DNA of 64,000 nt from an uncultured Prevotellaceae bacterium (GTDB lineage Bacteria; Bacteroidota; Bacteroidia; Bacteroidales; Bacteroidaceae). The notes under the pieces are model-generated. The model was not told where the DNA came from and did no database searches. It saw nothing but the letters and a program-made list of their open reading frames with translations. Below, piece after piece: positions 18,819-33,550 of the stretch. The translations under genes and the position numbers were made by a program. The stretch is taken from the NCBI GenBank assembly GCA_900315455.1, contig OMZE01000018.1, positions 1-64,000 of the forward strand. Direction: 5' to 3'. Numbering within the stretch: the first letter of the stretch is position 1; each line of letters begins with the position of its first letter.

Positions 18819-18826
18819 CAAAATTA
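18819..18826 (-). promoter_or_regulatory. -7 box of the GH31/GH38 operon
   Basis: On the minus strand this reads TAATTTTG (TAnnTTTG). The -33 position has no TTTG, which suggests the promoter depends on an activator. Exactly 33 bp separate this box from the AAATGTATAA core upstream, the same distance as at the susC promoter. Confidence 0.6.
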
Positions 18827-18857: not shown

Positions 18858-18892
18858 GCAAATGTATAAGGTATATTGCCTTATACATTTGC
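18858..18892. promoter_or_regulatory. perfect inverted repeat, proposed operator (site A)
   Basis: Arms gcaaatgtataagg and ccttatacatttgc (14 bp each, perfect) flank a 7-bp spacer. It lies between the GH31 operon start and the 3' end of the DUF6377 regulator gene. It could also form an RNA hairpin, but the AAATGTATAA core recurs upstream of susC and GH76, favouring a protein-binding site. The regulator assignment is inference. Confidence 0.65.
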
Positions 18893-18969
18893 CATCTATC
18901 TGAAAATCAATATATTGACTATTCCTTTACCAAGGATTTGTATAAAGGAAATATTGCAGTTTCAAGTGT

Positions 18970-20565
18970 CTATATCTCCATAATCAACTTTTCAAACTGT
19001 TCGTTTTCGGCTGTCGAACGGTTCTTGATGCGGGTCTTGTAGGTATTGACCGTATGGACGGAATAGTCGAGGAATTTGGCTATCCGCTCGCTGTCGGTGA
19101 TGCCCAGGCGGATGAGGGCGAAGATACGCATCTCGGAGGTCAAAGAATGGTCGTTGGGTGGAAGTTTACGGTCTTTCTCCTCGAAGAGCAGGTTGTAGCG
19201 TTCCACGAAATTGGGAAACAGTTTGAGGAACGTCTGGTCGAAGGCCTCATACATATTCTCCCTCTCGGCATTGAGCGTTGACAGTTTTGTCATCGAGCGC
19301 AGGTCGTCATACTGACGGGCAGTGAGTTTGCGGTCGATGGTGAGGAAGAGTTTTTCCAACTTGGCTATGTACTCCGCATTGGTGTAGAAGGTACGGCCTA
19401 TATAGGCATTCTTGATTTTGTCGTCTTCCTTCAGCAAGCGGTTGGCATGCTGCAATTGCTCCAGTTGTCCGGCAATGGTTTCGCGCGCCTCTGTGAGTTT
19501 TCGGTTCTTCTTCCGGATAAACCAATAGCCATAGAGAATCACCAGCAACAGCGCAACGAAGAGAGAGGAAGCGGCAATAAGCCAGTTGCGCTGGCTCCGC
19601 ACCGCTTTGTAACGGTCTTGTTCGATAATGGGGAGGATATCGCCTATCTCCACCTTGCGCAGACGGGTGTTGTAGAACTGCACGTCGTCGAGCGCCTGAT
19701 GCACATACCGGCTGGCACGCTCATGCTGCCCGTCCTTGTAGACGAGTCTTGAAAGATGATAGAGGGCAGTGATCTCGCGTGTGGCCGTTTCATTGTCGTA
19801 AATGGCCGATTGCGCGAAATACTCCTGCGCCTTATCCTCATCTTTCATATGGATATACGCCCACCCCATCTCGGCAGTGACCATCGCCTTGAGATGAGGT
19901 GTGGCCTTGGGGTCATCGAGCACTTTCTGGAATGCCTCCAATGCCTCAGGATATTTCCAGTCGCGCATCAGTCGCGACCCGCGGCTCGAATACCACATCA
20001 TGGTCTTGGGCGGCAAGGCCCGGATGAGCGAATCGAGATAGGTGTTGCTGAGGGTGATATACTTGGTGTAATAAGGGTCGTCGTGGGCATAGTCGGCCAT
20101 TGCCCTGTAGAGGCTGCATTTCATATCGAGATACAGGTTGTGCAATGGTTGCGGCAGTGTGCGGGGGTCTACCGTGTCGAGTATGGAAGAGGCTTCACTG
20201 AGGATGCCTGCCGAGATAAGACAGAAAGCCACTGCACATTTCGACTCCGCGATACGGTCGCTCTCCCCCATCTTCTCTGCCAGTTCCTGGCTCTCGCGGG
20301 CATAATATACCGCCGAGTCGTAACTATAACTTTTGTTTTCCTCAAACAATGCCATCAGTGCCTGATAGCGGCTTGCCTGGCTGTTGGCCGATTTCAGTTG
20401 TTTGCGGAGGTCATCAAGACGGCTCTTTTTCTGATTCTCATACTGTTCACGTTTCGAGAGGCTCTCATCCAGCCGTTGAAGCCATTGCTCCTTCGTGTCT
20501 TGTGCCGACAACACCAACGGGCATAAGAGGAAAGCAAAAATCATATAGTTGATTATACGTTTCAT
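18970..20565 (-). CDS. DUF6377 membrane regulator (SusR-like), TPR sensor plus HTH
   Basis: 531 residues. A signal peptide (1-21) leads into a long helical, TPR-like periplasmic region (about 25-315). One transmembrane helix follows ('WLIAASSLFVALLLVILYGYWF', about 325-346), then a coiled coil and a cytoplasmic C-terminal domain. Near the end, 'LTSEMRIFALIRLGITDSERIAKFLDYSVHTVNTYKTRIKNRS' (about 475-520) has the pattern of a LuxR-type helix-turn-helix. This layout is that of the Bacteroides SusR/DUF6377 group, which sense oligosaccharide in the periplasm and activate adjacent PUL genes. It sits between the two Sus-type operons, with its own promoter. It likely controls the operons carrying the AAATGTATAA core. 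Confidence 0.8.
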   Translation of the reverse strand: MKRIINYMIFAFLLCPLVLSAQDTKEQWLQRLDESLSKREQYENQKKSRLDDLRKQLKSANSQASRYQALMALFEENKSYSYDSAVYYARESQELAEKMGESDRIAESKCAVAFCLISAGILSEASSILDTVDPRTLPQPLHNLYLDMKCSLYRAMADYAHDDPYYTKYITLSNTYLDSLIRALPPKTMMWYSSRGSRLMRDWKYPEALEAFQKVLDDPKATPHLKAMVTAEMGWAYIHMKDEDKAQEYFAQSAIYDNETATREITALYHLSRLVYKDGQHERASRYVHQALDDVQFYNTRLRKVEIGDILPIIEQDRYKAVRSQRNWLIAASSLFVALLLVILYGYWFIRKKNRKLTEARETIAGQLEQLQHANRLLKEDDKIKNAYIGRTFYTNAEYIAKLEKLFLTIDRKLTARQYDDLRSMTKLSTLNAERENMYEAFDQTFLKLFPNFVERYNLLFEEKDRKLPPNDHSLTSEMRIFALIRLGITDSERIAKFLDYSVHTVNTYKTRIKNRSTAENEQFEKLIMEI

Positions 20566-20682
20566 AGATTGTTAGTTTAATGGTCACCGAAATGCATTTG
20601 TAAGAGCACGAAGCGATGTGCCACATGACGGGCATTGCTCTTTTGAAATGTTCTCCGCTGGCATCATCCTTGCTTTACACTG

Positions 20683-20690
20683 CAAAATTA
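20683..20690 (-). promoter_or_regulatory. -7 box for the DUF6377 regulator
   Basis: TAATTTTG on the minus strand, 117 bp upstream of the regulator ATG, in an otherwise AT-rich gap. No AAATGTATAA core is visible here, so the regulator gene itself may not be under the same control. Confidence 0.45.
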
Positions 20691-20783
20691 AAACATTTTT
20701 TCTAACATCGTGACAAAAAACAAGAAAAAACAAACAATCGCCCATTCTTCGCTGCCCAACACCACCAATGGCATTGGCTGAAA

Positions 20784-20812
20784 GACAAAAAAAGGCATCC
20801 CGCTGGATGCCT
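20784..20812 (-). terminator. terminator of the susC-susD-susE-GH43 operon
   Basis: On the minus strand, stem aggcatcc / ggatgcct with a 4-nt loop is followed by eight T residues. It starts 22 bp after the GH43 stop codon and separates this operon from the regulator gene. Confidence 0.9.
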
Positions 20813-20833
20813 CTCACTTCTAATCATTTTCGC

Positions 20834-22108
20834 TCATATTTTTACCAACTTTTTGCATTGTACACCATTAGGACCATTAACCTTGATCACAAACATACCC
20901 TTGCCGAACCCCGAAGCGTCGACAACGGCAGTGTTTCTTGCCATGCCGTTGCCCATCATGCAGCCGTCGACATTGAACAACTGCCAAGAGAACGTCTCAT
21001 GGTCGGGCGCCTCGATGCGGTACATGCCATCGGCCTCGGTGGAGAGGATGAGGTATTCGGTGTCGGGGGTGACCGACAGCGGCGACGTGACTCCTGCTGC
21101 TTCGCCGAAGAGAGGTGCCTCGGCCTCGGTAGAAGGCCTCATGCCCTGTATCTGCGGCCAGCCGTCGTTGCCCCATGTGACCTTGTCGAGATAAATCACA
21201 CGCCCGGCATCCACATCGTCGGCCTGGAAGCCATGGTAGAGTATCCAGGTCTGGCCGGCATCGTCTTGTATGAACTCCGAACAGTGACCGGGCCCATAGA
21301 CCTGCGGACTGGCATTGAGCAGCGGAGAGAAGTTGTCGCCTATGGCCGACCGTCCCTCCCTGTCGACGTAAGGTCCGAAGAGATTTCTTGAACGTGCCAT
21401 CACCAGGCGGTATGTACTGTTGGCACCCTCGCAGCATGTTCCTGCCGAACCTATGAGGTAATAGTAGTTCTGATGCTTCACGATACACGTTGCCTCAATC
21501 AGTCCGCCGGCAATCTTCGTCGGCTCGGCACCTTCTTTGAAAGCCAGTCCGTCTTCGGTCAGTTCCACTCCGTAGATGTCGTGGAAAGACCCCCAGAACA
21601 GGTAGTTGTGGCCATCATCCTGGATGAAGAAGGGGTCGATGCAGTTTTCTATGCCCACCTCACTCGAGATAAACATCTTGTGAGCGTCGTGGAAACCGCC
21701 ATTGGGCCTGTCGGAAACCGCCACGCCTATGCCGCATTCCCATGTCTTTCCCCATTCCGACTTGGAGTAATACAACACATACTGTCCGTTGATGTAATTG
21801 ATATCGGGAGCCCAGATAGCCCCGTTAGGAACAAAATCCATGGGGCGTGTGGCATCGGTGAACGCTGTTCCGGCATATCGCCACGTCACCAGGTCTTTTG
21901 AGCGATATATAGGCACGTTGTGTGTATCCTCAGTGGCATAGAGATAAAAATAGTTGTCGGCAGCCTTAATGACAGAGGGGTCGGGCAGACTCCACTTCGC
22001 CACAGGGTTGTTGTAGAGTTTTACCTCGTCGTCGGCACACGTCGCAAGCCCCATCGACATGGTCAGGGCAACACAGAAGCATATTCTCATTACCATATTC
22101 ATCATCAT
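20834..22108 (-). CDS. GH43 family glycosidase (secreted)
   Basis: 424 residues; signal peptide about 1-25. The five-bladed beta-propeller markers of GH43 are present: general base Asp in 'WSLPDPSVI', pKa-modulating Asp in 'ENCIDPFFIQDD' and the acid Glu in 'GLIEATCIV'. Typical members are arabinanases, arabinofuranosidases, xylosidases or exo-galactanases. Residues after about 345 form a tail ('WQLFNVDGCMMGN...MFVIKV') resembling a secretion-sorting or beta-sandwich tail. It is the last gene of the susC operon, 8 bp after susE, so it likely acts on glycan bound by this SusCD pair. The start is ambiguous among four Met codons in the first seven. Confidence 0.9.
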   Translation of the reverse strand: MMMNMVMRICFCVALTMSMGLATCADDEVKLYNNPVAKWSLPDPSVIKAADNYFYLYATEDTHNVPIYRSKDLVTWRYAGTAFTDATRPMDFVPNGAIWAPDINYINGQYVLYYSKSEWGKTWECGIGVAVSDRPNGGFHDAHKMFISSEVGIENCIDPFFIQDDGHNYLFWGSFHDIYGVELTEDGLAFKEGAEPTKIAGGLIEATCIVKHQNYYYLIGSAGTCCEGANSTYRLVMARSRNLFGPYVDREGRSAIGDNFSPLLNASPQVYGPGHCSEFIQDDAGQTWILYHGFQADDVDAGRVIYLDKVTWGNDGWPQIQGMRPSTEAEAPLFGEAAGVTSPLSVTPDTEYLILSTEADGMYRIEAPDHETFSWQLFNVDGCMMGNGMARNTAVVDASGFGKGMFVIKVNGPNGVQCKKLVKI

Positions 22109-22116
22109 AGGGTGTT

Positions 22117-23253
22117 TCAGTTGGCAGGCTCAAATTTTGTCCACATGTCGGTAGCCAGAAGACATAGGGTGAAGGTATATCGGCCACTCACCGATGGAAC
22201 CCATTTCAGGTCACCGCCATTGTCTTGGAAACGGTACATGTCGAGTCGGTGGTTGGTCACGGGGTCAGCATTTGCTTCGGGAGCGAAGAAGAACTGGTCG
22301 CCCCATCCGTTGCCCAAGCCAAATTTTATCTCTCCACCTTCAACGAAGTCGCCTGTCCACGCATAATAATAGGGTTCACGGGCTGTTCCCACCATCTCGA
22401 GCCTTCCTGCCACGGTATTGGTGTTCCATCCGATAGAACAGCCGTTGCCACATATCCAGATGAGTCCGGGTGTGGGGAGTTGCACGATATCGAGCACGCG
22501 GCAGTCGTTGAAACCGTTGTTGGTATCTACGATGACGGTACGCTGTCCGGTCTGCTCAAAGGCGAACTGTTTCACATTGCCTTCGGTGACATACTCCATC
22601 TGTTCGCCCTCGGCTTGTCCGTAGGCAGGATAGTCCTCCAGACTTGTGGTGAAATAATACGTACAGGGGCGCAGGTTGAACGACCCTTCGTAGATGCCCG
22701 TTCCCAACTGCCGCTGTTCGAGACGCTCCACTTTTGCAGTGCCGTCGGCAGTGTTGGTGATATGCATGTAGAGATAGGTGGGATATTTCTCATAACATGT
22801 GGCTGTGAAAGTCACCGTAGAGGGAATGGGCTTCACATATTGTGTGGCGTTGTCGACATAGCAGAGCAACTGTGCCGTCACACTGAGAGGCTCTCCTGGC
22901 AATACCCACTTCGATATGATGGTATTGAGTTCGTCGTGAGTGAACGACTTCTGTGTGACATTGCCCAACTCTATCAGTTCTGACATATGTTCACCCTTCA
23001 TGTTTGTATCGTAGAAACGGATGCTGTAACTCACGGGGTCGCCAGCCGACACGGGGCTTGTTGCCGCATCCCATGTGAATGTGATGGCATCCTGGTCGGC
23101 CAGGCCTTTATTGAAGACCACATTCTCGGCAGAGGCCTTGATATGCATCTGGTCGGGATTGTCTTTCAGTTCATAATATACGGGGTCTTCATTGCAGGAA
23201 GCCATGCTTCCCACAACGAAGATCAGACCAACTGAATATATCAACTTTTTCAT
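22117..23253 (-). CDS. SusE-family outer-membrane lipoprotein
   Basis: 378 residues. The lipoprotein signal ends 'GSMASC' with Cys20. The start at 23253 (MKKLIY) was preferred over an in-frame ATG three codons earlier. The N-terminal part (about 30-140) is the SusE-type Ig-like domain ('ITFTWDAATSPVSAGDPVSYSIRF'). A second domain with 'TYLYMHITNTADG' and a third C-terminal domain follow ('PGLIWICGNGCSIGWNTN', ending 'GRYTFTLCLLATDMWTKFEPAN'). It is expected to bind oligosaccharide at the cell surface beside SusCD. Third in the operon, 29 bp after susD. Confidence 0.85.
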   Translation of the reverse strand: MKKLIYSVGLIFVVGSMASCNEDPVYYELKDNPDQMHIKASAENVVFNKGLADQDAITFTWDAATSPVSAGDPVSYSIRFYDTNMKGEHMSELIELGNVTQKSFTHDELNTIISKWVLPGEPLSVTAQLLCYVDNATQYVKPIPSTVTFTATCYEKYPTYLYMHITNTADGTAKVERLEQRQLGTGIYEGSFNLRPCTYYFTTSLEDYPAYGQAEGEQMEYVTEGNVKQFAFEQTGQRTVIVDTNNGFNDCRVLDIVQLPTPGLIWICGNGCSIGWNTNTVAGRLEMVGTAREPYYYAWTGDFVEGGEIKFGLGNGWGDQFFFAPEANADPVTNHRLDMYRFQDNGGDLKWVPSVSGRYTFTLCLLATDMWTKFEPAN

Positions 23254-23282
23254 ATCTGTCACTTTTTTTTGATGGTTTGTTG

Positions 23283-25232
23283 TTATTGTCCAGCCTCGCC
23301 CGAGCCTTCACCGGTCACCCAGAAAGGAGCCTCTACGAGATTGGGGTTCTTCTCATATTCGTTGATATAAATAGGCATCCAATAGTACTCACGCTTCCAC
23401 ACACGCTTCTGGTAAGGTGTGCGCTGGAAGAATTCGTTCTGGTTGCGTCCCTGGGCATTCATGCCGTAGCAGTCGCCGTTCATCTCGGGTATGCTCTCGG
23501 CGAGCATGAGACGGCGGATGTCGAACCATCGGTTGTTCTCGCAGCACAACTCCACACGCCGCTCCATATAGACTACGTTCCTCACGGCTTCCTGGGTGTT
23601 GTCGATATGGATGTATTCCTCATCCATCTGGTTCACGTTCTCGAAAGTGTATTGTCTCACACCGGCACGCTTGCGAATGAGATTGAGGTATTTCAACGAC
23701 TGCTCACGAGCCTCCGCAGTATTGTAGGCCTCGTTCACGGCTTCGGCATAGTCGAGGTAGGTGAACGCAAGACGGTAGGTGAATCCCTGGCGGTCGGTCA
23801 CGGCGCCTGTGAGGTAGTTGTCGGTCACACAGAGCGACTTGCGTGCGAGATAACCATTCTGAGGTGCATCGTGTGGCGACGACGACTGTATGTTGTCGCG
23901 ACCATTGTAGAAGAAGTTGTACTTGCGGTTGCCTACTGCCAACCATGAACCATGGTATGAAACGGCATTGTAGAACCTCGGCTCGCGATTGCAATACATG
24001 TTGTAGGTGCCGCGTGCCGTCACCTCTCCCGGATTACCGGTGCCATATTCCCATGAAGTAACATCCGAGCGGTCCTCGACAACAGATGAGAAGCCTTCTT
24101 CTACATAACCCGAATTGGGGTCGCTGATAGGCAGTCCGTTCTTTGTGAAGAAAGCATCGACGAGTCCCTGATACACCCCAAGTCCATTACCGCCGCCATA
24201 CTCTCTCACAGAGACGGTGCGCAGGAAGGTGCCGTGGTAGTCGTTGCCCTTGGTCACGGGGAAGGTGATTTCGCGGTTGCCCTCGCTCCATTTCTTGATG
24301 TGCACATTATAAGTCGACATAAACGGATCGATGTTGCCGTTGGGGCCGGCTTCGGTATAGAGTGCATATCCTGCTTTCTCGGCCTCATCGATGCAGAGTT
24401 TGCATGCCTCAGCAGCCTTGACCCACTTGTTGTGGTCGTAAGTGGGATTGAAAATCTGTTCACCAAGATTATTGCGGTAGTTGGTATACCAGGGATTTCC
24501 GTTGACCAGCGGACTGGCAGCAAAGAGCAGCATGCGCGAACGCACGGTAAGTGCCATGATTTTATTGATACGGCCGTATTTGGCGGGGTCGGAGTAGATG
24601 GCGGGGAGTGCATTTGCGGCTTCCAGCATCTCCTTATCGCAATAGTCGACCACATCGTCGAATTTCGACTGGCCCACCATCAACTCATCGAGTGATGCGT
24701 CGGTAGGTGCGATATAGTCGGGCTTGAAAGGGATGCCGCCATAGTTCTCGGCCAGCAGCCACCATCCGTAAGCCGTGAGGAACTTCACCTCATTCTTCAT
24801 GTTGTCGACCTCCGACTGCGGCAGGTCATGGTCGGGCATGGCTTTTACCATGTTGTTGAAGATATATCCGTGACGGATATACAGCGGCATCCTGGCCCAG
24901 AGGTCGCCATCCCAAGGCGAGTTGATGGTCCATGTGCCGGTAATTTTCTCTATGACGAGACGCCAGTCCCATTGGCGCCAACGCTCTGAGGGTGTGATGT
25001 CGTCGGCCATCACCTCGTAGCCGTCGGCGGTGAGCGACCACTTGTCGGGTTTGTGTATCACATTGTAAATGCTTGCCAGCCAAGAGTAAACTTTATCGCG
25101 GTTTTCGAACACCATGTCGGTGGTCAGTTCCGGGTCGGGTTCCTTGTCAAGGTAATCGGAGCACGATGTGGCAATCGACAGCACCACCAGTGCGGCTGCC
25201 ATATATTTTGCAAACTTAAATGTTTTCATCAT
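23283..25232 (-). CDS. SusD/RagB-family glycan-binding lipoprotein
   Basis: 649 residues. Lipobox 'SIATSC' with Cys24, followed by 'SDYLDKEPDPELT', the usual SusD N-terminus. Helical TPR-type repeats run through the chain. C-terminal SusD-like signatures are present: 'AFTYLDYAEAVNEAYN', 'LKYLNLIRKRAGV' and 'VYMERRVELCCENNRWFDIRR'. It binds glycan at the surface and caps the SusC transporter. It follows susC by 22 bp. It is longer than starch SusD (about 550), consistent with an insertion-bearing member. Confidence 0.95.
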   Translation of the reverse strand: MMKTFKFAKYMAAALVVLSIATSCSDYLDKEPDPELTTDMVFENRDKVYSWLASIYNVIHKPDKWSLTADGYEVMADDITPSERWRQWDWRLVIEKITGTWTINSPWDGDLWARMPLYIRHGYIFNNMVKAMPDHDLPQSEVDNMKNEVKFLTAYGWWLLAENYGGIPFKPDYIAPTDASLDELMVGQSKFDDVVDYCDKEMLEAANALPAIYSDPAKYGRINKIMALTVRSRMLLFAASPLVNGNPWYTNYRNNLGEQIFNPTYDHNKWVKAAEACKLCIDEAEKAGYALYTEAGPNGNIDPFMSTYNVHIKKWSEGNREITFPVTKGNDYHGTFLRTVSVREYGGGNGLGVYQGLVDAFFTKNGLPISDPNSGYVEEGFSSVVEDRSDVTSWEYGTGNPGEVTARGTYNMYCNREPRFYNAVSYHGSWLAVGNRKYNFFYNGRDNIQSSSPHDAPQNGYLARKSLCVTDNYLTGAVTDRQGFTYRLAFTYLDYAEAVNEAYNTAEAREQSLKYLNLIRKRAGVRQYTFENVNQMDEEYIHIDNTQEAVRNVVYMERRVELCCENNRWFDIRRLMLAESIPEMNGDCYGMNAQGRNQNEFFQRTPYQKRVWKREYYWMPIYINEYEKNPNLVEAPFWVTGEGSGEAGQ

Positions 25233-25254
25233 TCGTCGTATTTGTAATTATGCA

Positions 25255-28200
25255 TTAGAAACTGATATCCAATCCGAACATGACAGAACGGTTGAGAGGA
25301 TACTGCAAGCCATTGCTGGTGCCAAGTTCTGGGTCCCAGAGTTTGAATCCCGAGAAGCAGAACAGGTTGTTCCCGCTCACATAGATGCGGCAATTCTTGG
25401 CATATATATGCTCTACCCATGCTTTGGGCAGTGTATATCCTACTTCGATGGTTTTGCAGCGCAAGAAACTCATGTTTTTCTTCCACCATGTGGAGGAACG
25501 GTAGTTGTTCTGGTTGGGGCCATAGGTGAGACGCGGCCAGAAAGCATAGGGGTCGGGGTTGTCGTCGGTCCACCTGTCGTCGATATTATAAGAGTAGGCA
25601 TTGCCCTCGGTAGTGGTTCCGCCTCCGGGGAGGAAGTAAGGCTGTCCGCCTATTACGCGATACACGTCACCCACACCCTGGAAGAAGAAGTTGAGGTCGA
25701 TTTTCTTATAACTGATAACACCACCGAAACCATATACGATACGGGGGTCTACGGTGCCGCCGATAAATCCTTCGTCTTCCTCGGTGATGACATTGTCGCC
25801 GTTCATGTCAAGATACTTGATGTCGCCGGGATAGAGTTGCGAGCCGCCCACGCGCTGTTCGGGGATGCCGGCTTTGAGACTGCCGTCGGCATTGAAGTCG
25901 TCTTTGGTAAACAGGCGCTCGGCAGTAAGTCCGTAGAGTTCGCCCCACGAGCGTCCGGTCTGTGCACGGTGCGTGCCTTTCTTTACCTCGGGCTCGTCGA
26001 ATTCCGTCACCTTGTTCTTGGCATAGGTGAAGTTGCCGTAGGCTGAGGTATAGAAGTCTTTGTTCCACTGCTTATGCAGGTTGATGGTGAACTCTATACC
26101 CTGGTTCTCCATCTTTCCGTAGTTGGCATAGGGCTGGCTCTCGTAGGGAATACCACTCTGTGACGGCACGCTGCTGCGCCGCATGAAGATGTCTTTACGG
26201 TTTTCCTTGAAGATATCGAAACTGAAGTCGATGGCATTGATAAGGCTCAGTTCGATACCGAAATTCTTCTTCGTCACCGTCTCCCAAGTGAGGTTGCTCA
26301 CGCCGTATTCACCCTCCAGGATACCGTCGAAATGGCGCTGTCCGGTGGTACCCCAGGTATAGCCATAATCGCCCGACTGTTTGAGCGTGGTGAGATATGC
26401 GAAACGGCGTCCGCCGATGTTGTCGTCACCGGCAAGTCCGATGCTGGCACGGAACTTGATTTTGTTGAACGTCGATTTATACGGCTCCATCCAGGGTTCC
26501 TCGCTCAGCAGCCAACCCAAGGCGAAAGAGGGGAAGAAACCGAAGCGCTTGCCCTTGGCGAAGTTTTCCGAACCGTTGTAACCGAAGTTGAACTCTGCCA
26601 CATATCGGTTGTCATAGGTTCCGGAGAGACGCCCGGCAATACCCTGTTTGCGGAAGTCCTGAATGTCGCCATTGTCGTAAGCCTGCTGGTTGTAGAGGAA
26701 AAGGGCATCGACATCCAACTTACCGAACTTACGGGCATACATCAGGTCGGCTTCGAAGTAGATGTTGGTGTTGCCATACTCACCACTGTTGTAGTGAGGC
26801 ATCGACTCGTCGCCGGTCTGGAACTGGGTATAGATGAGATTGCCTTCCTCGTCGCGCCCGGTGGTGGGAAACACGGTGCCCACATTGGTTCTGCGCCCGC
26901 GCTCGCTCTGGTTCCAGCGGTCGAAACTGAACAGCACTTTGGCTTTCAGTCCTTTGGTTATCTGTTTCAGGTCTTGCTCCACGGAGAAGAGCGTTTGCAA
27001 CTTCGACGACGTGCGGAAATTGTAGCCGCCCTGTGTCACTTCCAGCCATGGATTGTGACGGTTGGAGATAAGGGGTATGGCGCCATCGCTGTAACGTGCC
27101 GGATGTGCAAACGGGAGTGTCATGAAAGCATGGTCGAAAGCAGTATTCACATCCACGCCCTGCTTCTTGAACCTATTGAGGTAGCCACCGATATTCACCC
27201 TCAGCAGGGTGGTCTTGGTCACATCCATATCGATATTGGTGCGCAGGTTGAACTGCTGGTTGTTGGTGGCATTGTCGATGGGCAGTGTCTTGTCCTGCTC
27301 GAGGATGCCGCCCTCCTTGAAATAGGATGCTACGATAGAATAGCGCAGGAAGTCGGAACCGCCGCTCACCTCCAGATTGCCACGTGTGGTGTGGGCATAA
27401 TCCTTGGTGATGGCATCTATCCAATTGACATCGGGATAGAGGTCGGGGTCATAGCCTATACGCGTGCGTTCAATCTGCAATGCGGTGAACGGCAGAGGCG
27501 AACCGTCTTTTCCTGCTAGGTCGTTGAGCAGCGTCATATAGTCGGCAGCATTGAGGAACTCGGGAAACATAGTAGGCTCACTGATGGCATGCTCTACATG
27601 GAAACGCACCTGCGGTGCTCCCACCTTGCCTCGCTTGGTGGTGATAACGATAATACCGTTGGCGCCCCGCACACCATACATGGCCTGTGCAGAGGCATCC
27701 TTCAAAATAGAGAACGACTCTATTTCGGCAATATCCACATTGTTGAGGTCGCGGGCCACACCGTCGATGAGCACCAAGGGGGCATTGCTGCCATGGAAAG
27801 TAGACATACCGCGTATCCAGAATTCGGAATCGTCGTATCCGGGTTCTCCTGAGCGCTGGATACCTATCACACCACTCAGTTTTCCCGCCAGGTTATTGGA
27901 TAATGTACGTGTGGTACCAAATTGCAATTCCGAGGGTTTAATGGTCTCGATGGAACCGATAATCGAAGCCTTCTTCTGACTGCTGTAACCAGTCACCACC
28001 ACCTCGGTAAACTCATTGGTGTCTTCTTCCATCTGCACGTTGAGCAGTTTGGCGCCGTTCACCTTCACTTCTTTCTTCTTATACCCCACATAGGTAAATT
28101 CTATCATCGTAGTGCTTTTGTTGGGCACCGTGATGTGGAACATACCGTCGACATCGGTCACAGTCCTGTTCTGGGTACCTACGACGGTCACCGTCACACC

Positions 28201-28383
28201 GATGAGGGGCTCTTTCTCGCTGTCGGTCACAAGTCCCGTCACTTGTATCTCGTGACCATCCTGCTGCACGGCTGCCACTGCCCTCGGCAGTGAAGGCGAT
28301 GCTGCCTGCATCACCATCGTGCCAAGCATGAAGATGCCGGCAGGAAGTAGATTTCGGCAAAATTCAGATAGATTTCTTTGCAT
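25255..28383 (-). CDS. SusC/RagA-family TonB-dependent outer-membrane transporter
   Basis: 1042 residues. After a signal sequence (about 1-30) comes a carboxypeptidase-regulatory-like domain ('VTGLVTDSEKEPLIGVTVTV'). The TonB-box region is 'EVVVTGYSSQKKASIIGS'. The plug domain contains 'APLVLIDGVARDLNNVD' and 'SAQAMYGVRGANGIIVITTK', the SusC hallmark. The rest is a beta barrel ending in an aromatic residue ('SVMFGLDISF'). It imports large oligosaccharides using TonB energy together with the SusD product. First gene of a four-gene operon, driven by an activator-type promoter with an upstream AAATGTATAA core. Confidence 0.96.
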   Translation of the reverse strand: MQRNLSEFCRNLLPAGIFMLGTMVMQAASPSLPRAVAAVQQDGHEIQVTGLVTDSEKEPLIGVTVTVVGTQNRTVTDVDGMFHITVPNKSTTMIEFTYVGYKKKEVKVNGAKLLNVQMEEDTNEFTEVVVTGYSSQKKASIIGSIETIKPSELQFGTTRTLSNNLAGKLSGVIGIQRSGEPGYDDSEFWIRGMSTFHGSNAPLVLIDGVARDLNNVDIAEIESFSILKDASAQAMYGVRGANGIIVITTKRGKVGAPQVRFHVEHAISEPTMFPEFLNAADYMTLLNDLAGKDGSPLPFTALQIERTRIGYDPDLYPDVNWIDAITKDYAHTTRGNLEVSGGSDFLRYSIVASYFKEGGILEQDKTLPIDNATNNQQFNLRTNIDMDVTKTTLLRVNIGGYLNRFKKQGVDVNTAFDHAFMTLPFAHPARYSDGAIPLISNRHNPWLEVTQGGYNFRTSSKLQTLFSVEQDLKQITKGLKAKVLFSFDRWNQSERGRRTNVGTVFPTTGRDEEGNLIYTQFQTGDESMPHYNSGEYGNTNIYFEADLMYARKFGKLDVDALFLYNQQAYDNGDIQDFRKQGIAGRLSGTYDNRYVAEFNFGYNGSENFAKGKRFGFFPSFALGWLLSEEPWMEPYKSTFNKIKFRASIGLAGDDNIGGRRFAYLTTLKQSGDYGYTWGTTGQRHFDGILEGEYGVSNLTWETVTKKNFGIELSLINAIDFSFDIFKENRKDIFMRRSSVPSQSGIPYESQPYANYGKMENQGIEFTINLHKQWNKDFYTSAYGNFTYAKNKVTEFDEPEVKKGTHRAQTGRSWGELYGLTAERLFTKDDFNADGSLKAGIPEQRVGGSQLYPGDIKYLDMNGDNVITEEDEGFIGGTVDPRIVYGFGGVISYKKIDLNFFFQGVGDVYRVIGGQPYFLPGGGTTTEGNAYSYNIDDRWTDDNPDPYAFWPRLTYGPNQNNYRSSTWWKKNMSFLRCKTIEVGYTLPKAWVEHIYAKNCRIYVSGNNLFCFSGFKLWDPELGTSNGLQYPLNRSVMFGLDISF

Positions 28384-28414
28384 ACATAGTTAGGTTAATA
28401 ATTAGACTTTTCCG

Positions 28415-28422
28415 CAAAATTA
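28415..28422 (-). promoter_or_regulatory. -7 box of the susC operon
   Basis: TAATTTTG on the minus strand, 31 bp upstream of the susC start. No TTTG at -33, as at the GH31 operon promoter. Confidence 0.6.
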
Positions 28423-28455
28423 CACCTTTTGCACCTACGTAAGAGAAATAATTGG

Positions 28456-28477
28456 AAATGTATAATGTGTTTATAAC
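28456..28477. promoter_or_regulatory. proposed operator (site B) upstream of susC
   Basis: AAATGTATAA at 28456-28465, followed by TTATAAC; the two TATAA elements are 11 bp apart. The core begins exactly 33 bp from the -7 box, identical to site A. Binding by the DUF6377 regulator is inference. Confidence 0.55.
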
Positions 28478-28541
28478 TCCATCGCCATAATATCATCTGA
28501 TTATCAGATGCTTATGTTTTTCCACAGTATATCGGTGTATA

Positions 28542-28570
28542 ACAAAAATATAGGGCTGCGCATGCAGCCC
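28542..28570 (-). terminator. terminator of the GH76-GH43 operon
   Basis: Stem gggctgc / gcagccc with a 4-nt loop (28553-28570), followed on the minus strand by TATATTTTTG. It lies 6 bp after the stop codon of the last gene. Confidence 0.75.
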
Positions 28571-28576
28571 CATACC

Positions 28577-30580
28577 TTATTTTGTCAAGAAATCCGCTGT
28601 TCGATGCGGAGAATACAACTCCCACAACGATGCGATGGTCCACCCTGGCGCGAAGATGTCGTTGTAGAATCCCTTGCCGTTGCGTCCGTAATCCCATTGG
28701 GTATGTTGCACCACTTCGGGATTGAATCCCGGCACTCCGATGCCACACAATCTCTGGGGGGTGGGCAACAGTTGGTTGAGCGAAGAGTAAATCACATCGT
28801 GTATCTTCCGGAACCGCTGTTCGCCTGTCTGACCGGCAAGCCAGTTCACGATATGGGCGAGTTCGAAGACAAAGACATCGATGTGGTTGTTCTCCACCGA
28901 CACGTTGCTCCATCCACGGGTTTTCAGTCCGAGGTCGCCAAGCATCTGCCCCTCGGCAAACGGCACATCCCAGAGATAATACCATGAGAGGGCGAAATAG
29001 GCTGCCTGGACACAGAGGTCTATATAATGACTGCGCTCCTGCTTCTTGGTGACCATGGCAAGATAATAGGTGGCGGTGACCGCACTGATGGCTGCCTCCT
29101 TGTCCTCGCAGTTGGCATCGAGCGTGGATGAGAAATAGTCGCTCTTGGATATGATGTTCTGCTCCAAATACTGCACTGTGCGCTTTGCTGCCGCCAGATA
29201 GCGTTTGTCGCCAAAATACTTGTATCCCATCACCAGTGTGGAAGTGGCACTCGGGGTAGAGCCGCCAGAGGCATCCACATCGCTATGGTCGTCGCGGAAT
29301 TTCCTGGGAAAATGACCGTCGTCTTTGAGCAGTTCCACCATATTGTTGAGCAAAGTGCGCATCTTCTTCTCCCACTCCAAGTGTTTGCGCCCCTGCTTCT
29401 TCTCGTAGTTGAGATAGTGGAGCACGGCATAGACCGCCTCCGACTGCTGACGGATACTGTGCACGATGTCGTTGTCGGCAGGAATGCCACCGGCAATATG
29501 CATGTCTTCTTTGAAATAGCCTTTTGCCGTAAACCCGTATTTCAGCCAACTGTCGAAGATCTCCTGTCCGATTTTCACCAAAGCAGCATCGCCGCGCTGC
29601 TCACCATATTCCAGGGCATTGAAGGCATTGAGGAGCACACGGCCGCAGAAACCCAGTTGCACGTGGTCGACAGGAAGGCAGTCGTCGCACCTGATGCTGA
29701 TGCCCGAGTTGTATTTGAGGTCGTATTTATCGACGTAACTCTTGCGGAAATAGTCCGACAACTGCGCCTTCATCTCATCGGCTGTATAGAGAGGCTGAAC
29801 AGGCTGCGGGTTCAACCGGTCGAAGCAATGGGTCCAGGTCTGTGCGATAAACTGCCCGTAGTCATCGGCCTTGGACTGCCGGATAATCCACGAAAGCGAG
29901 ATTTGCTCGCCTTTTTCCAATTTCGCGAAGGCTACGATGGGATTCACCAGAGTGAGTTTGCGTATATATCGCTGTGGAGTTTCCATATACGGATACCCGA
30001 AGGTGACGGCGGCAAGTCCGCTGCTGTTGTCGAAGCCCAGATAGCCAAGCGACGTCTTGCCGCTGAGAATCACCTCACCCTCCTGGTGGGTGGTGAGTGC
30101 ATCGCAGCAGCCATCCAAATGGCGCAACACGCTCAATGTCTTGCCCGACTTGCTGTCGTAAACACCCGAGAGGGGCGACGACAGGCGGTCTTCGCGGAAG
30201 TTCCAACTCTTCGACGTGTGAAACGAGGGGGCCGATTGGGGTGAGCGCAGGTTTTTGTGATACCAGAAACCAGGCAGGTAGAACTCGCAGTCGTCGGTGG
30301 CAAAGTGGGTTGGAATACTCAAGTTGAGATTGAAATATACCCGCTGATTGGCGGTGACGGTAACAGTGAGTTTCTCGTCATCGCCGTCTTTCGTCATTTG
30401 CTTGCTGATGACGAGTGGCAGGTCAGCGTCGGCGCTGAACAGATTGCCTTTGTCACGAAGCGGATAAGTGACCGCCATGTTGCCGGGTTGCTTCAACGAC
30501 ACCCGGGCATTCAATTCAATGGGCTGTGCATTGACCTGACACCAGGGCACCGCCAGCAGGAGCATCATTATTTTTCTCAT
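28577..30580 (-). CDS. secreted protein of unknown family, likely (alpha/alpha)-barrel glycosidase-like
   Basis: 667 residues, signal peptide about 1-18 ('VPWCQVNA'). The first ~230 residues look beta-rich ('RVYFNLNLSIPTHF', 'EVILSGKTSLGYLGFD'). The remaining ~400 are strongly helical with repeated aromatic and Gly-containing turns ('GGSTPSATSTLVMGYKYFGDKRYLAAAKRTVQYLEQ', split around residues 440-475). A beta-sandwich followed by an alpha/alpha toroid is the layout of several glycoside hydrolase and polysaccharide lyase families. Acidic candidates lie in 'DDHSDVDASGG' and 'LDANCEDKEA'. I do not recognise a named family. It is the last gene of the GH76-GH43 operon, 7 bp after GH43, so a role in breaking down the same glycan is likely. 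Confidence 0.6.
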   Translation of the reverse strand: MRKIMMLLLAVPWCQVNAQPIELNARVSLKQPGNMAVTYPLRDKGNLFSADADLPLVISKQMTKDGDDEKLTVTVTANQRVYFNLNLSIPTHFATDDCEFYLPGFWYHKNLRSPQSAPSFHTSKSWNFREDRLSSPLSGVYDSKSGKTLSVLRHLDGCCDALTTHQEGEVILSGKTSLGYLGFDNSSGLAAVTFGYPYMETPQRYIRKLTLVNPIVAFAKLEKGEQISLSWIIRQSKADDYGQFIAQTWTHCFDRLNPQPVQPLYTADEMKAQLSDYFRKSYVDKYDLKYNSGISIRCDDCLPVDHVQLGFCGRVLLNAFNALEYGEQRGDAALVKIGQEIFDSWLKYGFTAKGYFKEDMHIAGGIPADNDIVHSIRQQSEAVYAVLHYLNYEKKQGRKHLEWEKKMRTLLNNMVELLKDDGHFPRKFRDDHSDVDASGGSTPSATSTLVMGYKYFGDKRYLAAAKRTVQYLEQNIISKSDYFSSTLDANCEDKEAAISAVTATYYLAMVTKKQERSHYIDLCVQAAYFALSWYYLWDVPFAEGQMLGDLGLKTRGWSNVSVENNHIDVFVFELAHIVNWLAGQTGEQRFRKIHDVIYSSLNQLLPTPQRLCGIGVPGFNPEVVQHTQWDYGRNGKGFYNDIFAPGWTIASLWELYSPHRTADFLTK

Positions 30581-30587
30581 GTTCGGT

Positions 30588-31583
30588 TTATTGATTTGAA
30601 GATTCTTTCAGTTTTGTGCGTCTTACCCCCTCGTGAGTGATTTTCACTGGGCGGATGTAACCGTTCTCGTCGAACTCCAGCCGGTCGATGCAAGTCACTC
30701 TGAAGTTGGCGTCGGTCTCGCCGAGTGGCCGTCGGTGGTAGATGATATACCACTCGTCGGCACCCTTTCCCTTGACGACGGAATGATGTCCGGCACTGGT
30801 GGCCACCGAAGGGTCGGACTCTAATATCTTGCCGATGCGCTTGAACGGCCCGAGGGGATTGTCGCTGATGGCATAACTCACACAATAGTTGGGCTGCCCC
30901 CACCCTCCTTCACTCCACATGAAGTAATACTTGCCGTTGCGTTTCATCATGAACGGTCCTTCGACATAGTGTTCGGGTGTCACCTCCTTGTATATCTCGC
31001 CGTCGTCGAATGCCGCCACGCCAAGAAGGTCGTCGGTGAGCCGCACCACATTGCAGTGTCCCCAGCCACCATAATACATATAATACTTTCCGTCGTCGTC
31101 GCAGAACACATACTGGTCTATCGGTTGGGCACCATTGACGACATGACTGATGAGAGGTTGGCCGAGGGCATCCTTGTAGGGACCTTGCGGGCGCTTGCTC
31201 ACTGCCACGCCGATGCCTCCCACTTCGCCCTCGTGCACATCATTGGCAGAGAAGAAGAGGTAGTAGAGGTTTCCTTTCCTCAGGATGGCAGGCGCCCACA
31301 TGGCCCGCCTTGCCCACGTCACGCTGTCGGAGGTGAGCACATCGGGGTGTTTCTTCCAATGCACCAAGTCGCTTGATGAGAACGCATCGAAATGCAGTTG
31401 CTGGTCGTAGGGGGCCGAAAAAGTGGGGAACACCCAGCAACGGTTGCCGAACACCACAGCCTCGGGGTCGGCATACCATCCTTCGAAAATGGGATTGCCG
31501 CTCCACTGTTTGTCTTTCTGTGCTTCTGCACCCACTATGGAGCATACGATGCACAGGCAGGTGAGCCAAATACGGTTTCTCAT
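30588..31583 (-). CDS. GH43 family glycosidase (secreted)
   Basis: 331 residues; signal peptide about 1-21 ('SIVGAEA'). GH43 markers: 'EGWYADPEAVV' (general base Asp), 'PIDQYVFCDDDGK' (pKa modulator), 'HYVEGPFMMKRNGKYYFMW' (acid Glu). It is a single-domain enzyme with no added binding module. The ATG at 31583 was chosen over an earlier in-frame Met because it opens a clean signal peptide. It lies 7 bp downstream of the GH76 gene. Likely removes arabinose- or xylose-type side chains; activity unproven. Confidence 0.9.
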   Translation of the reverse strand: MRNRIWLTCLCIVCSIVGAEAQKDKQWSGNPIFEGWYADPEAVVFGNRCWVFPTFSAPYDQQLHFDAFSSSDLVHWKKHPDVLTSDSVTWARRAMWAPAILRKGNLYYLFFSANDVHEGEVGGIGVAVSKRPQGPYKDALGQPLISHVVNGAQPIDQYVFCDDDGKYYMYYGGWGHCNVVRLTDDLLGVAAFDDGEIYKEVTPEHYVEGPFMMKRNGKYYFMWSEGGWGQPNYCVSYAISDNPLGPFKRIGKILESDPSVATSAGHHSVVKGKGADEWYIIYHRRPLGETDANFRVTCIDRLEFDENGYIRPVKITHEGVRRTKLKESSNQ

Positions 31584-31590
31584 CACACAG

Positions 31591-33279
31591 TCACTTCTGT
31601 ACCAGATATTTCTTGTTGCCATGGATATAGATGCCTTTCCTGAGAGGAAGCGAGGTCTTCATCCCCGTCAGCGTATAGTATGAGTCGTCGCCATGATACC
31701 CTGTATGGCAGCGGTGCCGGCTATCGGCATCAGCCTGCGGCGAGATGGCCGACACGTCGTCCATCGGCACAGCAAAGGCGGCGGCAAGCGACGTGGAACC
31801 GCCGAAAGCGGAACCGGGCAGGCTATAGTCTTTCTCGCCATACTTCATGTCTTCGGCAGCCTTCGTGAGCCATGCGGAGTGACCGAACGACTGCGAATTG
31901 AGGTTGTTGTAGGCATGGAAGGCGTTTGCCGCGAGCCACGACATGTAGCCGGAATGCTCAAATTCCCTGGCATAGAGACCAGCATAGCGCATGAGGATGC
32001 CCTTGAAGCCTTGGAAATCGCCATCCACATTCTGGCATACGCTCACCACTCCGTTGCTGTCGCATAGTTCTGCCTTCGCAAAAGCAATGATTTTGTCGGC
32101 ATCAGCCTTATACTGCTCGTCACCATAATGCCTGTAGAGCAGCACAGCGGCACCGAGCATGGTGCCTTGGTTGTAGGTCGAAGCCCATGTGTTTCGGCTC
32201 ACCACAGTGAGGTCGCTGGGATTGAGCACCACACTGTCGTACACTCTTCCTGTCTCGGGCTCAAAGAGATACTTCCTCTGATTGGCATAGAGCAGACGTG
32301 CCTTCTCGTAATAGGTTTCGTCGCCCGAACCGGCAGCGATATAGCAGGCAGCCACCTCTGCAGGCCCGTTGATGCAGGAGTTGGTGCCGTTGCGGTCGCC
32401 CGTGTATTCTGCCCATCGGAGCATATCGATGTAACCCAGATGAGCACGCTGCCAAATCAGGTCGAAGTTGTACTTGGCGTTATTGAGATAGACCTGCTTG
32501 CCCGTAAGCAGATATGCTCTTGCTGCCCCGATAATCATCCACATCACATCGTCGTTGAAGTCATAGCCAAACCAGTCGTATCCGTCGACCACCGTTCCTC
32601 CAGTCCAGTTGTTGCCCACATGATATTTCATGTATTTGTAGCACGACTCATACACATCAAGATAGTCGGTTTCCTGGGTGCGCTCATACATATCGAGAAT
32701 CGTCTCAAGGGTCTCAGCCTCTCCCCAGCCGCCGTTGCAGAAGGTCTTGTAGCCATTTCCCTTGTCCTGCAGATAGTGGTTGAGATAGCCGGTGGCCATG
32801 CGCCTGCGGGCCTGGGCATCGAAAACCGATTGCGGCTGCACTTCTTCGAAAATCCACGGCTGGGCTGCTCCCAGAAACGGCTGTCTGCCGTCGTAACGGC
32901 TGCTGGCACGCAGGTATTCGCCGTCTTTCTTAATAAACAATGTGCCTTTGCTCTCGTCGGCATCTTCCAAGGTCCAATGGGCCACACTCTCTGTCTGTAT
33001 GAGGAACTTGCCCGAAGTGTTGAGATATTTTCCGGTATATACGTTTTTAAGGGCCAATTCTCCTCCTGTGCCCTCTACCACTGTCCATTGCTGGGCAGGA
33101 ACATCGGTCTCTGTCCACAACACCACGGCGGCATGGTCACCCAGCGAGGAGTTGTTGACAAAAAGCGATTTGCTTTGGTTCTCCTCAGGCATGATGCGAT
33201 AGGTCTTTCCGGGTTCTACCGCTCCCGAGACAGCAATGGAAAAAACTACGAGGACAAGCAAGGTTGGTAGTCGCTTCAT
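31591..33279 (-). CDS. GH76 endo-alpha-1,6-mannanase with N-terminal beta-trefoil and C-terminal tail
   Basis: 562 residues, signal peptide about 1-20. Residues 25-147 form a ricin-like beta-trefoil ('YRIMPEENQSKSLFV', 'QQWTVVEG', 'GKYLNTSG'). Residues about 150-505 are the GH76 alpha/alpha barrel. Its paired catalytic aspartates Asp243-Asp244 lie in 'WFGYDFNDDVMWM', and other GH76 features include 'NGGWGEAETLETILDMY' and 'CINGPAEVAACYIA'. The end ('YYTLTGMKTSLPLRKGIYIH') is the same kind of tail seen on other secreted proteins here. GH76 enzymes cut the alpha-1,6-mannan backbone of yeast-type mannan. First gene of a three-gene operon. Confidence 0.9.
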   Translation of the reverse strand: MKRLPTLLVLVVFSIAVSGAVEPGKTYRIMPEENQSKSLFVNNSSLGDHAAVVLWTETDVPAQQWTVVEGTGGELALKNVYTGKYLNTSGKFLIQTESVAHWTLEDADESKGTLFIKKDGEYLRASSRYDGRQPFLGAAQPWIFEEVQPQSVFDAQARRRMATGYLNHYLQDKGNGYKTFCNGGWGEAETLETILDMYERTQETDYLDVYESCYKYMKYHVGNNWTGGTVVDGYDWFGYDFNDDVMWMIIGAARAYLLTGKQVYLNNAKYNFDLIWQRAHLGYIDMLRWAEYTGDRNGTNSCINGPAEVAACYIAAGSGDETYYEKARLLYANQRKYLFEPETGRVYDSVVLNPSDLTVVSRNTWASTYNQGTMLGAAVLLYRHYGDEQYKADADKIIAFAKAELCDSNGVVSVCQNVDGDFQGFKGILMRYAGLYAREFEHSGYMSWLAANAFHAYNNLNSQSFGHSAWLTKAAEDMKYGEKDYSLPGSAFGGSTSLAAAFAVPMDDVSAISPQADADSRHRCHTGYHGDDSYYTLTGMKTSLPLRKGIYIHGNKKYLVQK

Positions 33280-33373
33280 AAAAAAATACTTCTTTGGTTA
33301 CAGGAATGAGGTTTGTTCTGCTTTTCTGTCCGGAAAGATAACCCTCCGGCCACGAAACATGTTATTTCGCTTA

Positions 33374-33405
33374 CAAAATTAGTGAGAAAAGGGAAGCAGG
33401 GCAAA
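33374..33405 (-). promoter_or_regulatory. promoter of the GH76 operon
   Basis: On the minus strand, -33 TTTG (33402-33405) and -7 TAATTTTG (33374-33381) with a 20-bp spacer. The -33 box overlaps site C. Confidence 0.7.
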
Positions 33406-33427
33406 ATGTATAACGGGAAATATAAGG
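33403..33427. promoter_or_regulatory. proposed operator (site C) at the GH76 promoter
   Basis: AAATGTATAA then, after CGGGAA, ATATAAGG. The core starts 22 bp from the -7 box, 11 bp (about one helical turn) closer than at sites A and B. Confidence 0.5.
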
Positions 33428-33432
33428 CTGTA

Positions 33433-33459
33433 TGACACCTGCAAGTGGACTGACACCTG
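33433..33459 (+). repeat. direct repeat TGACACCTG in the divergent control region
   Basis: Two exact copies of TGACACCTG (33433-33441 and 33451-33459) with 18 bp start-to-start spacing, between sites C and D. The gap 33280-33682 is about 400 bp and otherwise holds only promoters and operators. Confidence 0.5.
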
Positions 33460-33525
33460 TGAACATGGCTTAAACACTCATGTTTACATCATCATAGCGA
33501 GACAAGGACACTTCGGCGACTACAT

Positions 33526-33550
33526 GGAAATGTATAATGAAAATATAAGG
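33526..33550. promoter_or_regulatory. proposed operator (site D) in the divergent region
   Basis: GGAAATGTATAATGAAAATATAAGG: the AAATGTATAA core plus a second ATATAAGG half 11 bp later, nearly the same as site C 125 bp away. It lies about 105 bp upstream of the -7 box of the plus-strand gene. Confidence 0.5.

Follow-up and report, generated by a model that had tools for sequence, protein, structure and literature searches.

A probable long-spaced direct-repeat operator with a conserved central element and a TTATACA box type at a SusR-family locus resembling alpha-mannan utilisation loci

The model locus for starch utilisation, the sus operon, is regulated by SusR. Operators of SusR (BT3705) and of the related SusR2 (BT3091), SusR3 (BT3309) and SusR4 (BT2160) were predicted in a study of 11 Bacteroides genomes (Ravcheev et al. 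2013, PMC3878776), the text of which describes direct repeats whose centres are 67 or 77 bp apart and which lie upstream of operons belonging to the regulator's locus, calls the spacer non-conserved, explains the unusual length of the repeats by protein size and assigns alpha-mannan to hybrid two-component system (HTCS) regulators; the mechanism of SusR was still termed undefined in the text of a 2019 article (PMC6874557). Here, we present an analysis of a 64,000-nucleotide stretch (the window; positions 1 to 64,000 of contig OMZE01000018.1, assembly GCA_900315455.1) from an uncultured Prevotellaceae bacterium, in which a gene for a SusR-family regulator with a DUF6377 domain lies among operons of a polysaccharide utilisation locus (PUL). 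Two of these operons are preceded by long-spaced direct repeats, here called operators A and B. Repeats of 67 or 77 bp had already been predicted for SusR-like regulators (PMC3878776); new with respect to the text of that study are a conserved central element in the spacer and the TTATACA box type.

The window operators share with the sus operon the protein family of the regulator, the distance to the -7 box, the central element and its distance to the distal box; they differ from sus-type promoters in spacing (66-67 bp in 29 of 32 of the latter), in box sequence (TTTATATTTT in sus) and in the neighbouring genes, which in sus belong to glycoside hydrolase (GH) families 13 and 97. The box is TTATACA[A/T] here, compared with CCACTTTTT, CTACTTTTT or TTTATATTTT in the SusR-family relatives examined. 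In the case of HTCS_Man-1 to -3 of Bacteroides thetaiotaomicron, the substrate class and the susC and mannosidase targets are shared; however, these regulators are of another family and their motifs, as given in the text of PMC3878776, are 16-bp repeats with a 5-bp spacer.

Two full operators and an irregular promoter in the window

The initial annotation of the window had pointed to a repeated 10-mer, AAATGTATAA, as the operator of the DUF6377 regulator. The repetition is real: the 10-mer has five exact matches (18860+, 28456+, 33404+ and 33528+, together with an inverted arm at 18881-), compared with 0.10 expected per window, and none of 100 window shuffles reached five. All five lie outside the called open reading frames, as had been noted. 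In the direction of transcription the 10-mer reads TTATACATTT, one half, the proximal one, of a larger operator. Across the whole genome AAATGTATAA is not enriched (17 matches, five of them in the window, versus 16 for the reversed control), so the bare 10-mer is weak evidence and was discarded as a genome-wide marker; the specificity lies in the operator layout. Near the other 12 genomic matches we found no pair of boxes that combines a spacing of 74-78 bp with a -7 box at 43 bp; most of the paired hits around them come from very AT-rich DNA on contig 70.

The data do not support the 10-mer as the whole operator; the unit is a direct repeat with long spacing, a central element and a fixed distance to the -7 box, and the four sites first described are not equivalent but belong to two full operators (A and B) and one irregular pair of boxes (C and D). 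The distal boxes, at 18945 and 28542, and the central elements had escaped notice. The full plan consists of a distal box, ATATTTC-nn-T[T/A/G]ATACAA, a centre that begins 29 bp from the start of the distal box, a proximal box of similar sequence 75-78 bp from the distal one and a -7 box, TAnnTTTG, 43 bp from the start of the proximal box, to which some operators add an inverted half-site, TTGTATAA. The TATAA element reported 11-12 bp from the 10-mer is present; rather than being a separate element, it overlaps the upstream half of the same ~18-bp box, ATATTTC-nn-TTATACA. The reported distances between the 10-mer, taken at its end, and the -7 box (33 bp at GH31 and susC, 22 bp at GH76) hold.

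All features of the three promoters and their target genes are on the minus strand. Operator A lies upstream of the GH31 gene (16537..18789; Pfam GH31) and consists of the distal box AATATTTCCTTTATACAAAT (18936..18955), which scores 24.2 bits with a position weight matrix (PWM) from whose training the window was left out, the central element AA-N4-TTGATTTTCAG (18894..18916), the proximal box GCAATATACCTTATACATTT (18860..18879; exact match and PWM), which includes the 10-mer, and the -7 box TAATTTTG (18819..18826) of the GH31 operon, 43 bp from the start of the proximal box. Upstream of the proximal box, AAATGTATAA recurs exactly in the inverted orientation (18881..18890). This is the second arm of the inverted repeat annotated at this site, and we reread it as the inverted half-site; with a simple expression, such half-sites turn up at 10 of 28 related loci. 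The two boxes, at 18945 and 18869, are 76 bp apart.

Operator B precedes the gene for a SusC-like TonB-dependent receptor (25255..28383; Pfam Plug and CarbopepD_reg_2). Its distal box TATATTTTTGTTATACACCG (28533..28552) and proximal box TATAAACACATTATACATTT (28456..28475; exact match and PWM), at 28542 and 28465, are 77 bp apart; the central element AAGCATCTGATAATCAGATGATA is at 28491..28513, and the -7 box TAATTTTG of the susC operon (28415..28422) again lies 43 bp from the proximal box start. The PWM score of the distal box by itself, 14.1 bits, falls inside the shuffle range (maxima of 11.1-18.0 bits over 20 draws), and we accept this box because of the 77-bp spacing, the -7 box and the centre rather than its score. 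With spacings of 76 and 77 bp, both operators have the direct repeat of about 67 or 77 bp that is expected of SusR-like operators.

Upstream of the GH76 gene (31591..33279; Pfam GH76, the alpha-1,6-mannanase family) are box D, TATATTTTCATTATACATTT (33528..33547; PWM 22.9 bits), and, 124 bp away, box C, ATATTTCCCGTTATACATTT (33404..33423; PWM 17.4 bits), which is 32 bp from the -7 box TAATTTTG (33374..33381, coordinates from the spacing analysis) and hence 11 bp closer to it than the proximal boxes of A and B. No central element was seen by eye between D and C. In two relatives (loci L127 and L134), strict-pattern operators, as defined below, do precede GH76.

Conservation of the operator and its pairing with a recognition helix

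The regulator gene (18970..20565, minus strand) encodes 531 aa and matches Pfam DUF6377 with 253 bits and TPR repeats; with NCBIfam NF058541 (SusR_regulator) it scores 520.9 bits and exceeds the curated cut-off of 480. Read by eye, the translation has a signal peptide, one transmembrane segment and a C-terminal helix-turn-helix, FLDYSVHTVNTYKTR, and the protein is predicted to be a periplasmic sensor with a membrane segment and a cytoplasmic DNA-binding domain. An open-access full-text search found no literature on DUF6377. Two more members of NF058541 above the cut-off are encoded on contigs 68 and 75 of the same genome, each with a canonical-type long-spaced operator and a central element next to a susC gene. 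At two starch loci (L258 and L263), a SusR-family member of 531 aa is divergent from GH13, GH97 and susC-sized genes; this starch-gene regulator is of the same predicted kind as the DUF6377 regulator of the window.

We collected 27 orthologue loci from a sample of 200 same-genus genomes, with 42-79% identity between regulators, and sought T[T/A/G]ATACAA followed by TTATACA[A/T], both in sense orientation, downstream of the regulator. In 21 of 28 loci (the window plus the 27 orthologue loci) two such boxes are 75-77 bp apart. A box matrix gave 33 pairs at 75-78 bp, and the -7 box (TAnnTTTG or GAnnTTTG) lies 43 bp away in 32 of them and 44 bp away in one; by comparison, no pair at 74-78 bp arose in one Markov-random draw of these regions that kept their composition. 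A strict pattern, which specifies both boxes and the place of the -7 box, fits 23 of these 33 pairs, and in the ten pairs outside it the -7 box is at 43 bp in nine and at 44 bp in one. Spacing peaks at 65/66 and 130-132 bp are nearly all due to a single unrelated tandem array in region G141 (locus L107), which lies ~10-11 kb upstream of the regulator, has a period of 65/66 bp and contains GATATAAGAGATATACAAC in every unit.

The scan of related genomes that had been suggested as a check gave 34 matches to the strict pattern in 21 of the 200 genomes and none to the reversed control. The pattern is present in 20 of the 27 genomes that carry the regulator (own genome included) versus 1 of the 173 others (Fisher 1.1e-20). 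We scanned the gene after 15 matched operators with Pfam. The eight remote operators, which are on another contig, 90 kb away or in genome G070, precede genes for GH76 (L127, L134), GH125 and a GtaA-like protein (both L150), susC (L126, L128, L143) and GH31 (L149); the seven operators at or within ~15 kb of the regulator precede GH31 (L137, L138, L139), susC (L153), a GDSL lipase (L125) or a gene with no Pfam match (L124, L152).

To relate box to protein, 81 SusR-family regions were compared, of which 26 carry the recognition helix FL[DNH][YF]S[VI]HT[VI]NTYK (the mannan-type helix) and 55 do not; the table omits L264, whose regulator was not found by the helix-turn-helix expression, and the orthologue loci G140, G002 and G166. 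A TTATAC operator was found in 24 of the 26 regions with the mannan-type helix versus 0 of the 55 others, while canonical or sus-type operators were found in 0 of the 26 versus 33 of the 55 (Fisher 1.4e-18). The box sequence hence follows the relatedness of the regulators, as is expected of SusR-like operators. A scan free of any box sequence, which assumed only a -7 box at 43 bp, gave spacing peaks at 67 bp (nine) and 77 bp (six) in 40 Bacteroidaceae SusR regions; these peaks match the values predicted in 2013 in the text of PMC3878776, which argues that the operator described here is of the predicted kind with a new box.

The layout of the operator, its conservation and its pairing with a type of recognition helix are direct observations, and the boxes in the window are very probably, as the initial annotation had proposed for its sites, operators of the SusR-family regulator encoded at 18970-20565. 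In gut bacteria that have not been studied, the pairing would help to predict which PULs are under SusR-family proteins; it also suggests that the substrates under SusR-type control include alpha-mannan.

Among the 40 Bacteroidaceae regions the only TTATA-type operator is in L246, from an inferred Bacteroides-group genome, which also carries the mannan-type helix. In this region (L246:9166-18664), the regulator is followed by a DUF5004 gene, a weak DUF4961 match, susC- and susD-sized genes and a GH99 gene, and it thus represents a second predicted gene arrangement under the same operator type.

A conserved element in the centre of the spacer

When 31 strict-pattern operators were aligned on the distal box, conservation outside the search pattern was conspicuous in ATATTTC before the box and in AA-N4-YTGANNNTCAR at +29 to +45. 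The A at +29 is present in 31/31 operators, at repeat spacings of 75, 76 and 77 bp alike. A trailing N4-TT is weaker (T at +50/51 in 19-20 of 31), and the dyad is centred near +40.

The independent tests of the central element are the SusR orthologues and the canonical operators. We ran a centre matrix, trained solely on operators of the mannan type, against 51 loci of SusR orthologues, 47 of which have enough upstream DNA; in 32 of the 47, the promoter divergent from the SusR orthologue has a repeat and a -7 box by our rules, 29 of them with a spacing of 66-67 bp, and the divergent neighbour is GH13 (27) or GH97 (5). The best matrix match is at the expected place in 29 of these 32 promoters. 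Among the canonical operators, which were gathered without use of the centre, the best match is in place in 22 of 29, among 27 positions tried. Contrary to the description of a non-conserved spacer in the text of PMC3878776, the spacer holds a conserved central element in all three operator groups; we found no description of such an element in the article texts examined.

The centre resembles a binding site for integration host factor (IHF), for which we took the consensus WATCAANNNNTTR as printed in the text of PMC8942017. In operator A, the opposite strand, AATCAATATATTG, fits it at 9/9 positions, and in operator B at 8/9. With up to two mismatches in nine, on either strand and within 1 bp of the place, the consensus fits 29/31 mannan-type, 20/29 canonical and 30/32 SusR-orthologue operators, with shuffle means of 1.8, 3.2 and 3.4, respectively. 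The genome itself has four HU/IHF-family (PF00216) matches over the cut-off. An FNR-like reading and a Crp-like reading (Crp motif as given in the text of PMC3878776) were rejected, because the spacing does not fit.

In genus paralogues, a matrix search for the centre and the -7 box gave a peak at 90-92 bp. A pattern of centre plus -7 box alone matches in 100 of 200 genomes (reversed control, 9); it is unspecific because many of the matches listed are one conserved unrelated promoter (CAAAGGTAAGNATTTTTTTGATACG...). This promoter-like block, CAAAGGTAAGNATTTTTTTGATACG...TTTTTTTTGTAACTTTTTTGCAA, is conserved across many same-genus genomes (e.g. G042:C13:61104 and G172:C1:26818, among the matches listed).

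Candidate mechanism, alternatives and target genes

IHF-dependent looped promoters, of the sigma-54 type, join two protein sites over a bend site that lies between them. The SusR-family operators may share this layout of two sites plus a bend, a likeness that we draw from sequence alone; no SusR case of such a promoter is described in the article texts of the SusR literature examined. Nothing points to sigma-54 or an enhancer ATPase at the SusR-family operators, although no search aimed at these was made. In the mechanism that we envisage, a mannan oligosaccharide in the periplasm would be sensed by the membrane-anchored regulator, whose cytoplasmic helix-turn-helix domains would occupy the distal and proximal boxes; bound at the central element, a dimeric IHF/HU-like protein would bend the spacer; and the bent spacer would bring the two bound copies of the regulator together beside RNA polymerase. 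On this account, the best supported of those considered, the operator would be a looped activator site in which some seven (or six) helical turns separate the boxes, with a good -7 box and a fixed activator distance. Binding, activation and the sugar sensed are what we infer here. That an IHF/HU-like protein binds the central element and bends the spacer is a suggestion we would put close to, though short of, an even chance. Slightly more tentatively, we speculate that the looped operators of the SusR family in Bacteroidaceae PULs have an obligatory third part, a bend site in rigid phase with the distal box, which explains the 67- and 77-bp repeats, and that the recognition helix sets the box, in which case box and target genes could be read from the protein sequence. 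A third element that keeps its distance to the distal box and is common to starch-, mannan- and other SusR-family promoters makes DNA bending a testable alternative to protein size as the reason for the long repeats.

The main rival to bending is that the SusR-family regulator itself contacts the central element, as a second contact of its dimer or oligomer. The distance from distal box to centre is rigid in the mannan group, while that from centre to proximal box varies with the repeat (75-77 bp, and ~67 bp beside SusR orthologues), which fits a distal box and centre that act as one docking unit; however, the sequence of the centre hardly changes between regulators whose recognition helices and boxes are quite unlike one another, the IHF consensus fits it, and there are copies of the palindrome in intergenic DNA without SusR operators. 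We regard direct contact as a serious possibility, if on the doubtful side. It is improbable that the palindrome is a terminator of the upstream gene that lies inside the operator by coincidence: several regulator-proximal operators do show, by eye, a GC-rich stem followed by T, and similar palindromes elsewhere in the genome are terminator-like, but the palindrome of operator B has no T run, and promoters divergent from SusR orthologues keep the palindrome in place where no upstream gene ends, for which reason we reject a terminator as the general explanation.

The boxes could in principle belong to another regulator, such as an HTCS, an extracytoplasmic function (ECF) sigma factor or a Crp-like global regulator, with the DUF6377 protein a bystander. 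The assignment of the B. thetaiotaomicron alpha-mannan PULs to HTCS regulators in the text of PMC3878776 speaks for this; yet the box type tracks the DUF6377 recognition helix, the mannan HTCS motifs with their 5-bp spacer and the Crp motif given in the same text differ from the boxes, and the 76-77-bp spacing is not the short one of an HTCS operator. Moreover, no HTCS domain was found in the 18 window proteins scanned (39255-64000 lay outside the annotation). Altogether, we consider another regulator very unlikely. Chance AT-rich words in intergenic DNA would agree with the lack of genome-wide enrichment of the bare 10-mer, but the window shuffles speak against it, and the 34 versus 0 matches of the strict pattern in 200 genomes and the fixed spacings refute it; we give this explanation next to no credence.

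Several observations weigh against assigning the boxes to the SusR-family regulator and against a general role of the centre. The GH76 promoter departs from the SusR-like plan in its 124-bp box distance, its -7 box at 32 bp and the lack of a centre, and the GtaA-like gene at 33683 is without an operator of its own, although the GtaA-like gene of a relative has one. Two regions with the mannan-type helix, G146 and G147, have no operator at the threshold used (G146 has a match to central element plus -7 box near the contig start). Under the rules used, no operator was found in 22 of the 55 other SusR-family regions, where the thresholds for canonical operators were our own, or in 15 of the 47 promoters divergent from SusR orthologues. 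Conversely, G070, a genome 84% complete, has the strict pattern, and an orthologue of the regulator was not detected in it. The operators used to train the box matrix belong to the orthologue group itself, and 23 of the 33 pairs that the matrix gave already satisfy the strict pattern, so box scores inside this group are not independent; many of the operators, moreover, are from species related to one another (G085 and G141 hardly differ), which inflates the counts and makes the p-values overstate independence. As for the centre, the trailing TT is weak in the group and absent in operators A and B, and in the Bacteroidaceae set a matrix search for centre and -7 box that left the boxes aside showed no peak where one was expected (the commonest distance was 119 bp, with nine pairs versus five in the reversed control); analyses anchored on the boxes did show the element in that set. 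Finally, SusR operators are not the only places with the full palindrome, since it occurs at 12 sites elsewhere in the own genome versus 2 for the control, 11 of them intergenic and some terminator-like.

Away from SusR operators, the palindrome AANNNNYTGANNNTCARNNNNTT is found at C68:1263/1320, C68:153334/153382, C50:119395, C50:166803, C40:57944 and C42:31323, twice as pairs ~50 bp apart; several of these sites are terminator-like, and they are possibly a general nucleoid-protein site.

The 10-mer sites precede three operons, which begin with GH31, susC and GH76, and genes for GH38 and GH43 are nearby. With this gene content, the locus looks like an alpha-mannan utilisation locus; judged by the target genes, the probable substrate is alpha-mannan from fungi or yeast. 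Within the GtaA-like gene (33683-36187), a box-like sequence, CGGTTTTACTTTATACAATC, lies at 34395 on the minus strand; it scores 17.3 bits with the PWM and is probably due to chance, because shuffles reach 18.0 bits. Two large proteins of the PUL, of 996 and 667 aa (12754-15744 and 28577-30580, minus strand), have no Pfam match at E 0.001 and may represent undescribed families.

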